Source: an uncultured Pelagibacteraceae bacterium (GTDB lineage: Bacteria; Pseudomonadota; Alphaproteobacteria; Pelagibacterales; Pelagibacteraceae). From it: a DNA stretch of 64,000 bases. The DNA is taken from NCBI GenBank assembly GCA_902557775.1, contig CACEBD010000001.1, positions 1-64,000 on the forward strand, written 5' to 3'. This document shows, piece by piece, positions 37,598 through 40,291 of the stretch. The notes beneath the pieces are model-generated. The model searched no databases. It had not been told where the DNA came from and saw only the letters and a program-made list of their open reading frames with translations. Position numbers and translations under genes: made by a program. How positions within the stretch are numbered: position 1 is the stretch's first letter; each line of letters starts with the position of its first letter.

Positions 37598-37602
37598 ATA
37601 GA

Positions 37603-38274
37603 ATGGCAAAAAAGAAAAAAACAAAAACAATAAAAAAAACGAAAAAAACTAAAAGAGCTAAAAATTTAAAAATAAAACCAGTTTTAAAAACTACGGAAAA
37701 AAAGAGCTCAGTATCAGGTCAAGAGGATAAACCAGAGATAAAAAAAATTAAAAAACAACCAACTGAAAAAAGGATCTATAATTTAAAAGATTTTGTTGTT
37801 TATCCGAAACATGGAGTTGGTAAAATTACCGCAGTAGAAAAAGCTACGATAGGTGAAATAGATATTCAATTTTATAAAATTCTTGTTGAAAAAGAAAAGT
37901 TAACTTTGACTGTTCCAATTAATCAGCAATCGAAACTTAGACCAATTTCAACAATCAATCAGATAAATAAGTGTATATCAATTTTAAAAACAAAACCAAA
38001 AATTAAAAGAACTATGTGGAGTAGAAGGGCTCAAGAGTATGATCAAAAAATAAATTCAGGAAAAATTTACGAATTAGCAGAAGTTGTAAAGGATCTTAAT
38101 AAAAATACCGACATTATTGCGGATCAGTCTTATTCTGAAAGACAATTATTTGAAAAAGCTTATGATAGACTTAAGTCTGAATTTGAGGCAGTCTTAAAGG
38201 TTTCACCTGAAGAAGTTCAAAAGAAAATGGATAAAGCTTTAGGAAGAGCAAAAATCTCAGAAGATGCACAATAA
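37603..38274 (+). CDS. carD: CarD family transcriptional regulator
   Basis: RNA-polymerase-binding regulator, 223 residues. The CarD/RID domain starts near residue 60 (YNLKDFVVYPKHGVGKITAVE), with VPINQQSKLRPIS closing the beta-barrel, followed by a helical DNA-contacting C-terminal part (MWSRRAQEYDQKINSGKIYELAEVV in part). The first ~55 residues are a Lys/Thr-rich tail (MAKKKKTKTIKKTKKTKRAK), which may bind DNA or be disordered. CarD stabilises open promoter complexes, typically at rRNA promoters. Last gene of the operon. Confidence 0.93.
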   Translation: MAKKKKTKTIKKTKKTKRAKNLKIKPVLKTTEKKSSVSGQEDKPEIKKIKKQPTEKRIYNLKDFVVYPKHGVGKITAVEKATIGEIDIQFYKILVEKEKLTLTVPINQQSKLRPISTINQINKCISILKTKPKIKRTMWSRRAQEYDQKINSGKIYELAEVVKDLNKNTDIIADQSYSERQLFEKAYDRLKSEFEAVLKVSPEEVQKKMDKALGRAKISEDAQ

Positions 38275-38316
38275 AAAAACGCCCTCTTTAAAATTAGAAT
38301 AATTGTAAAAAGGGCG
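38274..38316 (-). terminator. Rho-independent terminator of the 23-residue basic ORF
   Basis: CGCCCT (38280-38285) pairs with AGGGCG (38311-38316). Read on the minus strand the stem is followed by a run of seven Ts (38273-38279), the classic form, 18 bp after the stop of the small basic ORF at 38334. On the plus strand, after carD, the T-run is missing, so termination is mainly for the minus strand. Confidence 0.7.
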
Positions 38317-38333
38317 CTTAATTAAATAGAAAA

Positions 38334-38405
38334 CTATCTTCTTCTTCTTCTCTTTTTTGCTTTCTTTTTAGTTTTCTTTTTAGCTTTTTTTCTTCTTTTA
38401 GCCAT
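38334..38405 (-). CDS. 23-residue Lys/Arg-rich basic peptide
   Basis: A minus-strand ORF of 23 residues that begins MAKRRKKAKKKTKKKAKK and ends in five arginines: 11 Lys, 7 Arg, 3 Ala, one Thr and one Met. AAGGGAGA lies 6-8 bp before the ATG, a strong Shine-Dalgarno; a TTGACA promoter precedes it and a T-tailed hairpin follows its stop, so it looks like a complete one-gene unit. The product would bind nucleic acid, perhaps rRNA or the nucleoid. It resembles the basic N-terminal tail of the adjacent CarD in composition only. No family recognised. Confidence 0.6.
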   Translation of the reverse strand: MAKRRKKAKKKTKKKAKKRRRRR

Positions 38406-38452
38406 CTTTTCTCCCTTGTTTTAAACAAATCTTAATGATTCGTTTGTTAATA

Positions 38453-38483
38453 AATACATTAATTAATTAAGAATTCATGTCAA
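38453..38483 (-). promoter_or_regulatory. Promoter of the small basic ORF
   Basis: Minus-strand TTGACA (38478-38483) is a perfect -35. The -10 is TGTATT (38453-38458, 19-bp spacer) or the overlapping TAATGT (38456-38461, 16-bp spacer). The leader would be about 40 nt. The remaining 38484-38614 stretch, between this and the acyl-CoA ligase stop, shows nothing I can name. Confidence 0.5.
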
Positions 38484-38614
38484 ACATAAATTATTTTACA
38501 AAAGTGAATCAAAATTAAATTTTTTTAATTATTTTTAATATTCTTTTAATAATTTAAAAAAGTTAGTAATATCAATGTTTTTTTAAGCAAATAAAATAAG
38601 TTTTAATTTAATTT

Positions 38615-40291
38615 TTAATAAAGATTTTCCAGTTGTTGTTTATAATTTTTAATTATTTCTTTTCTTTTTAACTTTAAAGTTGGTGTTAACATTCCGTTTT
38701 CAATTGTAAATTCTTCATTAATTAAGACAAATTTTTTAATTTTTTCTATTAAATTTAAATTTTCGTTTATATTTTCAATTATAAGTTTAATTTTTTCTTT
38801 ATTAACTTCTTTTTCACTTACTACTAACGCAACTAAATAATTTTTTTTATCTCCATAAACAAAAGATTGTTTAATATTTTCATTTAAACATAAAATATTT
38901 TCTATCTTACTCGGTGAAATATTATCTCCACCTAAGTTAACAATAATATCTTTTTTTCTATCAGTAATTTTTAAATAATCATTTTCATCAAATTCACCTA
39001 TGTCACCAGTATGAAGCCATCCATCTTTAATTACTTTTTCTGTCTCCTCTTTTAAATTCCAATATCCTAACATTACGTTCTCACCTTTAATAAGAATTTC
39101 CCCATCTTCTGCTATTCTGACTTTATTTGTCCTAAAAGGAGGTCCTACCGATTCGACTTTAACTAAATCCGGTAAATTACAGCTTACAACTGGAGAGGCT
39201 TCGGTTAAGCCATATCCTTGTAGTGTGGGTAAACCAACTGCGTTTAAAAACTCTCCAATATTTTGATCTAAAGCTCCTCCCCCGGACACGAAGGCTTGAA
39301 GATTTCCACCAAACTGGTTTCTGATTTTTTTTCTAACTAATTTTTCACATAGAAAATTTGTGATTTTTTCACTAAATTTCAATTCTTCTTTTTTAAGTAT
39401 TTTTTTACCTAAATTTAAAGTCTGATTTATTAGTTTTCTTTTTAACCCAGATTGCTTCTCAAAATTCATATTTATTTTTGTAAAAAGATTTTGATAAAAT
39501 CTAGGAACGGCTGTCATGATTGTAGGTTTTGCAACTCCCATATTAGAAATCAGTTTTTCCAAACTTTCAGCGTAAAAAACTTTTGCTCCAACTATAATTT
39601 GAATAAATTGAACTGTGTGCTCATAAGAATGAGATAAAGGTAACCAAGTTAAAAATACTGGATCTTTTTTTTTAGTTAAAATTTCTAATAATTCAACTGC
39701 GCCTTCACAGTTAGATAAAATACCGCCATGACTTAAGACAACTCCTTTAGGATTTCCAGAAGTGCCTGATGTATAAATTATACAAGCAGGCATATTCCGT
39801 TTTAAATCTTTATTAACTATTTTTTCATTAGTTTCTTCATTTAATATTTCTTTAATTAATAAACTGTCATTATCTATTTCTTCAAAAGATATTATTTTCT
39901 TTACATCGCTATTGATAAAATTTTTAATTTTATTGAATTGATCTTGATTTGATACAAATATCAATGAGGGCTTACAATCATTTAAAATATATTCATAATC
40001 GTTTGCTGAATAAGTTGTAAAAATAGGAACTGAAATACCGCCTGCATTCATGATAGCGATATCGGTCATTAACCAATATGGTCTATTTTCAGAAAGTATT
40101 AAGCATCTATCACCTTGTTTTATTAACGATTTAATTTTTGCGGTAAGTTTATAAATTCTTTCAGTTACATCTTCCCAATTATAAGTTCGTTTGTCAGGTT
40201 TAAGCCATTTTAGAAATGGTATTTTACCCTCAACTTCTTCTGTCTTTTTAAAGTAAAGTTCAACTAAGCTATTTAATTTACTTATATCCAT
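38615..40291 (-). CDS. Long-chain acyl-CoA ligase family (AMP-forming)
   Basis: ANL-superfamily adenylating enzyme, 558 residues. The ATP loop is ACIIYTSGTSGNPKGVVLSHG, followed by LQGYGLTEASPVVSCN, the ATP aspartate in GWLHTGDIGEFDEN, and ITDRKKDIIVNLGGDNISP. The fold and length fit long-chain fatty-acid-CoA ligases (FadD/AMP-binding type). It probably activates fatty acids scavenged from the medium. Its C-terminal tail is Lys-rich. It stands just 4 bp upstream of the tRNA-Leu gene on the same strand. Confidence 0.87.
   Translation of the reverse strand: MDISKLNSLVELYFKKTEEVEGKIPFLKWLKPDKRTYNWEDVTERIYKLTAKIKSLIKQGDRCLILSENRPYWLMTDIAIMNAGGISVPIFTTYSANDYEYILNDCKPSLIFVSNQDQFNKIKNFINSDVKKIISFEEIDNDSLLIKEILNEETNEKIVNKDLKRNMPACIIYTSGTSGNPKGVVLSHGGILSNCEGAVELLEILTKKKDPVFLTWLPLSHSYEHTVQFIQIIVGAKVFYAESLEKLISNMGVAKPTIMTAVPRFYQNLFTKINMNFEKQSGLKRKLINQTLNLGKKILKKEELKFSEKITNFLCEKLVRKKIRNQFGGNLQAFVSGGGALDQNIGEFLNAVGLPTLQGYGLTEASPVVSCNLPDLVKVESVGPPFRTNKVRIAEDGEILIKGENVMLGYWNLKEETEKVIKDGWLHTGDIGEFDENDYLKITDRKKDIIVNLGGDNISPSKIENILCLNENIKQSFVYGDKKNYLVALVVSEKEVNKEKIKLIIENINENLNLIEKIKKFVLINEEFTIENGMLTPTLKLKRKEIIKNYKQQLENLY

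Follow-up and report, generated by a model that had tools for sequence, protein, structure and literature searches.

A conserved Lys/Arg-rich peptide gene convergent to carD in the SAR11 order Pelagibacterales

Introduction

In a 64,000-nucleotide stretch of DNA from an uncultured Pelagibacteraceae bacterium (hereafter the window), a 72-base open reading frame (ORF) lies between the carD gene and an acyl-CoA ligase gene and encodes a peptide made largely of lysine and arginine. The locus raises the question of whether such an ORF is a gene and, if so, what its product would do in the cell. An ORF of 72 bases falls under the usual size limits of gene calling. Moreover, trypsin cuts after lysine and arginine, so it would leave almost nothing of the peptide for standard proteomics.

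SAR11 bacteria are among the most abundant marine cell groups (PMC12636525) and have very small genomes. Among the literature matches listed, no title or abstract opening dealt with this gene; the sORF list in the supplement of the HIMB5 study (PMC6429828), of which the main text was partly available, may include it. The accessible parts of PMC5069961, PMC11364881 and PMC12636525 contained nothing on the peptide gene. The available portion of Table 1 in PMC2704228 had no row with carD or an acyl-CoA ligase; that table ends at ~26% GC, and the GC content of the intergenic region holding the peptide gene was 18.8%.

Results

The ORF was located on the minus strand at 38334..38405, with an ATG start and a TAG stop, and encoded the 23-residue peptide MAKRRKKAKKKTKKKAKKRRRRR. 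The original prediction had spoken of a Lys/Arg-only peptide, which does not hold literally, since the residues were 11 Lys, 7 Arg, 3 Ala, 1 Thr and 1 Met, in the numbers that the prediction itself had listed. The Shine-Dalgarno sequence AAGGGAGA was found at 38410..38417 (minus strand), and a TTGACA -35 box at 38478..38483 (minus strand). An intrinsic terminator was recognized by pattern and fold at 38273..38319 (minus strand) as a GCGCCC...GGGCG hairpin (stem at ~38280-38318) followed by 7 T, and its T run overlapped the stop codon of the convergent carD/cdnL gene (37603..38274, plus strand). The acyl-CoA ligase gene (AMP-binding; 38615..40291, minus strand) was the upstream neighbor on the same strand and was used as context only. 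Hence, the Shine-Dalgarno sequence, the ORF, the GC hairpin with its 7-T tail and the TTGACA box were all present as predicted, on the minus strand, which the prediction had left unnamed.

The predicted -10 options stood less firmly next to the TTGACA box. A canonical -10 element was absent, and a spacing of 16-17 nt offered TAATGT or AATGTA alone; the weak -10 region was placed from this spacing at 38455..38461 (minus strand). A consensus scan of 37600-39000 yielded 6 promoter-like sites compared to 8.1 in shuffled sequences, none of them at the TTGACA of the peptide unit, and reported no -10 region there. The terminator was not reported by the same scan, whose loop limit of 8 was smaller than the loop of the hairpin. 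In one study, as far as its accessible text goes, most of the alphaproteobacterial sigma-70 promoters analyzed had no thymine at -7 (PMC8407463), and a poor -10 region in the peptide unit was therefore unsurprising.

A hairpin, AAACGAATC-ATTAA-GATTTGTTT, was predicted by folding, close to the expected mRNA 5' end (38423..38445, minus strand; -7.1 kcal/mol, z -4.3). Among the ATG-start ORFs of 20 aa or longer in the window, only the MAKRRKKAKKKTKKKAKKRRRRR ORF reached 60% K+R, and when the window was simulated 200 times with an order-1 Markov model, no ORF of this kind occurred.

The conservation of the unit was examined at 161 carD loci of the order Pelagibacterales (SAR11), in which f1 denotes the family of the window, g1 its genus and f2 the sister family. 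Of the genomes sampled, 162 of 197 at the level of the family, 106 of 118 at that of the order and 99 of 114 at that of the class had a CarD match. The order-level loci comprised 30 of g1 (the window being L004), 39 of other f1 genera, 12 of f2 and 80 from Pelagibacteraceae/Pelagibacterales records, HIMB058 among them; the 30 g1 loci may share genomes with these 80 records. Loci L154 and L155 were the two ends of one contig. Locus L070 (wrong coordinates, without carD), L134 (a duplicate of L063) and the search by-products L001-L003 and L034 were left out of the set.

The original prediction depended on the ORF, the ribosome-binding site (RBS) and synteny being kept in close relatives, and all three were. 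A basic ORF was present at the convergent place beside carD in 154 of the 161 loci, and in the other 7 the contig stopped 91-114 bases past the carD match, within the basic ORF. The convergent strand was scanned for this count, and both strands were covered in the other locus scans of the ORF. The 154 ORFs comprised 81 different DNA sequences, which encoded 63 different peptides, and across the order their stop codons lay 52-179 bases from the carD match. A G-rich motif of Shine-Dalgarno type was found at most 18 nt from the start in 154/154 ORFs, the start choice having favored such a motif; in one f1 locus (L063) the start codon was GTG. A GGGCG-type stem end with a T run was detected by pattern search in 150 of the 154 downstream stretches. 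It is practically certain that the peptide gene is real and order-wide within the sampled loci.

The prediction that the ORF sits between carD and the acyl-CoA ligase was confirmed for f1 only. There, the ligase was next after the peptide ORF in 121 of 149 loci, and the other 28 contigs ended within 475 bases. None of the 12 f2 loci gave a ligase match, and 11 of these held 2.5-3.5 kb; therefore, the peptide gene was tied to carD and not to the ligase. In genus g5, a tRNA-Arg gene (anticodon cct) separated the ligase from the peptide promoter (L057, 3096-3172; L063, 3074-3150). Two inverted carD copies were observed on one contig in L154/L155 and on contig C6 of genome G030; these are probably assembly or amplification chimeras.

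Contigs often ended close to the gene. Of the 80 Pelagibacteraceae/Pelagibacterales loci, 22 ended less than 350 bases after carD, and 2 were cut short within ~2.9 kb upstream. GC content fell to its minimum for the window (9% over 120 bases, in 38440-38640) directly upstream of the peptide promoter, and coverage loss in AT-rich DNA is likely a sufficient explanation for the contig ends after carD.

Outside the order, the carD locus alone was examined, in 47 of the 97 carD-bearing non-order genomes of the class sample; 2 of these 47 loci held less than 250 bases downstream of carD. No ORF of at least 50% K+R was found at the place of the peptide in these 47 loci of other alphaproteobacterial families, nor was any convergent ATG-start ORF of 14-200 aa with at least 40% K+R found less than 500 bases from carD. 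When GTG starts were allowed, one such ORF appeared, convergent, 21 aa long and directly downstream of carD in L099 (43% K+R). Six non-order loci had ORFs of 40-48% K+R, but at least 520 bases from carD. At the carD loci examined, the peptide gene was seen in the SAR11 order only, tied to carD.

The promoter and leader were conserved together with the frame. Where 120 bases or more of upstream sequence were available, TTGAC was present in 139/139 regions and the full TTGACA in 130/139. In upstream regions of 100 bases or more, CGAATC occurred at most 75 nt from the start in 140/140, and the spacing from TTGAC to CGAATC was 38-41 nt in 139/139 regions. This would put CGAATC a few bases past the expected transcription start. 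CGAATC formed the left arm of the leader hairpin, whose right arm varied (GATTTG or GATTCG). In the g5, g7, g9 and g12 leaders, the stem was extended, with arms such as CACTTA/TAAGTG or CACATA/TATGTG; that the two arms change together was noted by eye. Six leaders were folded, with z-scores from -3.2 to -5.6. The hairpin would likely serve message stability or translational control. In 10 of the 154 loci (L050, L051, L055, L058-L062, L064 and L074; genera g7, g9 and g12), a CTCC was able to pair with the GGAG of the RBS, a hint that the RBS could be hidden in these genera and translation thereby controlled.

It was also considered that CGAATC...GATTCG could be a dimer operator. This was rejected, as the spacing of the halves varied and g12 dropped the right half yet kept a hairpin. 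A genome-wide search with TTGAC-N31-39-CGAATC gave 2 matches, one of them this unit, and the reversed control pattern likewise gave 2; the second genomic copy was not AT-rich.

The length of the peptide varied widely, from 19 to 99 aa over the 154 ORFs. The g1 peptides had 21-25 aa, with no residues other than A, K, M, R and T, and contained 78-82% K/R. Peptides of 19-58 aa were found in the other f1 genera and of 40-99 aa in f2, where one form opened with MEELKVIFAKARKKAKKKAAPKKK and continued with KAAPKKK/KAAKRKPAKKK repeats. The C-terminus consisted of three or more K/R in 154/154 peptides. Low-complexity repeats rich in K, A and P (KAAPKKK / KKPAAKKRK) were clear in f2 and g12; the window genus had no clear repeat unit, and the form of the window itself had no proline. 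At most ~11 residues preceded the basic stretch, in f2, and no N-terminal domain of AlgP type was found. An in-frame length range of this kind is a trait of H1-like/AlgP-type repeat proteins. The series reads as one protein that would have gained or lost in-frame units, although in-frame length changes would also be favored simply by slippage at three-base repeats. We infer that the direction of the series was shrinkage.

Further, the codons of the peptide were compared between ORF pairs of equal length, which are not independent of each other. Among 29 loci, codons for the same residue differed in 107/1485 cases for K (7%), 62/1038 for R (6%), 3/412 for A (0.7%) and 0/87 for T. The corresponding K/R/A/T values were 16/27/38/32% for HU (a label for the best Bac_DNA_binding matches) and 18/33/54/49% for bL34, in each case from the 30 best-scoring loci of the search and from genomes partly different from those of the peptide set. 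Across 104 loci, the differences were 7/5/4/0% for the peptide versus 23/35/57/58% for carD.

Runs of A were also kept short. Of 70 distinct f1 ORFs, 2 had runs of at least 9, compared to 80% after resampling with the codon usage of the window, the sequences being related and not independent trials; for the peptide ORF of the window alone, the resampling share was 0.045. In f2, runs did not exceed 8 in 10 of 11 distinct ORFs, and one had a run of 12. Weaker avoidance was recorded for the lysine-rich CarD tails (46% vs 81%), and the genes of the window showed little of it (14 runs vs 19.4 expected). The simplest reading of the codon constraint and the short A-runs would be that the peptide frame is under strong selection to be expressed accurately. 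A dnaX-type slippery heptamer, A_AAA_AAG, was observed in frame in 19 of the 70 distinct f1 ORFs and was not universal.

The CarD of the window matched PF21095 (CarD_C, 3.6e-20) and PF02559 (CarD_TRCF_RID, 1.7e-11), both above cut-off. Its N-terminal tail (37603-37746) was rich in K/R, in agreement with the original prediction, and H1-like; the tails in the SAR11 loci listed contained 32-46% K/R, below the share of the peptide. Genus means of tail length ranged over 40-115 aa in the order and followed the genus means of peptide length (Spearman 0.93, n=13 genera). Contrasts on a CarD-core tree gave a correlation of 0.35 (sign-flip p 0.007), with the same sign in 23 of 45 informative contrasts. 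The trend may come mostly from a few deep splits, and the co-variation was regarded as suggestive by genus means and weak by contrasts. Basic CarD tails (25-44% K/R) also occurred in alphaproteobacteria that had no peptide at this place (L101, L104, L106, L108 and L128), and in other alphaproteobacteria (L100, L109 and L110) the tail was short or absent.

Sequence databases were searched with several forms of the peptide. No Pfam or NCBIfam model exceeded the cut-off for MAKRRKKAKKKTKKKAKKRRRRR. The 85-, 58- and 99-aa forms had no Pfam match and a single NCBIfam match at 9.4 bits, far from the 157-bit cut-off; the curated Hc1/Hc2/H1-like model was not matched by these longer forms. Among PDB chain sequences, none matched MAKRRKKAKKKTKKKAKKRRRRR and one matched the 85-aa form at E 0.52, which was not meaningful. 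Rfam yielded no family at or above its gathering score (best 27.2 bits, E 0.02, with 47 needed). These searches correct for composition, and their negative results were therefore weak evidence for a peptide of such composition. Phage records gave no match with the low-complexity filter on. The 85-aa form, when searched across the class, matched 0 of 76 genomes, the own genome of the window included, and this search was uninformative.

Discussion

A stand-alone gene unit of the order Pelagibacterales was thus delineated, in which the -35 box, the leader hairpin, the RBS, the frame and the terminator, as recognized by sequence, were kept convergent to carD. We proposed, with somewhat better than even confidence, that the peptide is a polycation resembling an H1 tail in minimal form, which would act on nucleic acid and whose most likely site is the nucleoid. 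Transcription would start at the gene's own promoter, and the message would be translated; expression may be strong. The peptide would be a polycation of the histone-H1-tail/AlgP-repeat type, probably disordered when free, and its 18 K/R of 23 residues would bind the phosphates of nucleic acid without sequence specificity. The main target would be chromosomal DNA, whose charge would be neutralized and whose compaction in the nucleoid would be aided, parallel to the role thought for H1-like tails in other bacteria. The peptide would act beside the HU/IHF-family proteins, since Bac_DNA_binding genes were found in 51/51 genomes of the genus sample. The CarD family binds RNA polymerase, and the free peptide may be an untethered counterpart of the basic tail of CarD.

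The composition, the H1-like longer relatives and the company of CarD are compatible with nucleic-acid binding and favor it. This explanation was weakened by the lack of proline and repeat in the form of the window, by the absence of an AlgP N-terminal domain and by basic CarD tails that were not specific to the order. The sequence does not separate DNA, rRNA and polyphosphate as the target.

A more far-reaching version was put forward tentatively, as a possibility that we judged to be rather below even. The peptide would be a protamine-like SAR11 'micro-histone', derived from an ancestral protein of H1-tail type, encoded beside carD, which genome streamlining would have shrunk to 19-25 residues, with a dedicated promoter, a 5' leader hairpin and codons that keep A-runs short. 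A free polycation and one tethered to RNA polymerase through the basic tail of CarD would then act jointly on one nucleoid.

The best rival was that the peptide is a tiny ribosomal protein of the bS22/eL41/bL37 kind, a basic helix in an rRNA pocket overlooked for its size, which we regarded as unlikely but worth keeping in view. According to the accessible part of PMC10618245, the bS22 of Borrelia contains 61% K/R, was unannotated until the ribosome structure and was called analogous to the single-helix eL41 of 24 residues. The g1 peptides were equally short and even richer in K/R, and the CTCC...GGAG pairing potential of some leaders would suit autoregulated translation. However, the conserved length of a pocket-fitting protein was not found across the order: the wide length range, with gain and loss of repeats and with the KAAPKKK repeats of f2, disfavors a fixed rRNA pocket. 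No family model and no PDB chain pointed to a ribosomal protein either, for what searches so weak with this composition can tell.

Binding of polyphosphate or granules, as proposed for Pseudomonas AlgP, was given a slim chance. The KPAA tail of AlgP is needed for the spacing of polyphosphate granules, as described in the part of PMC9239181 that was available, and the longer relatives of the peptide share K/A/P repeats. The N-terminal domain of AlgP is missing here, however, and the neighboring carD and acyl-CoA ligase genes do not indicate polyphosphate.

Slimmer still was the chance that the transcript itself is the product, as a regulatory RNA, or that it acts in addition to the peptide. This would explain a synonymous constraint well beyond that of HU and bL34 and the conserved leader hairpin. 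On the other hand, the frame was kept through every length change, the amino-acid make-up was steady from 19 to 99 aa, and avoidance of A-runs, as protection of the frame, accounts for part of the constraint; moreover, the ORF was mostly weakly paired in folds, and the best Rfam score was far from what is needed. A chance ORF in A/T-rich DNA, in which lysine codons are many, was rejected as next to impossible on the strength of the 200 simulated windows and the order-wide conservation, and the original prediction that the unit is much stronger than a random AT-rich ORF was borne out by both.

The gene was present in all 154 order-level loci whose contigs run through, and its codons were tighter than those of HU and a ribosomal protein, so it likely matters to the cell. 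If the peptide is a protamine-like compactor, it would offer a concrete handle on DNA packing in the tiny SAR11 cells; if it is a ribosomal protein, a lineage-specific part would be added to the ribosome. The forms from f2 to g1 would be a natural series for the minimum length of a functional H1-like tail.

Several known systems resemble the peptide in part. The C-terminal KPAA tails of Pseudomonas AlgP (AlgR3) and PhaF are K/A/P polycations, H1-like and DNA-binding, according to the accessible text of PMC9239181, and the f2 and g12 forms are alike. AlgP differs in having a helical N-terminal domain of 124 aa and a repeat region of 154 aa, whereas the form of the window has 23 aa and no proline. 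The Hc2 protein of Chlamydia, grouped here with the H1-like proteins of Bordetella, is lysine-rich, binds DNA and varies in size with the number of its repeats (PMC2848022); its length of 165-237 aa and its repeat elements of 36 aa differ from the peptide, and no family model was matched by the forms of the peptide. The bS22/eL41/bL37 proteins, as far as PMC10618245 was accessible, are like the g1 peptide in size and charge, but sit in a fixed rRNA pocket, in contrast to the 19-99 aa observed here. Finally, the HMGA-like domain of Myxococcus CarD (PMC5324124, available in part) and the N-tails of SAR11 CarD provide a basic nucleic-acid-binding part on the CarD protein itself, whereas here the polycation is separately encoded, with a promoter-like region of its own.
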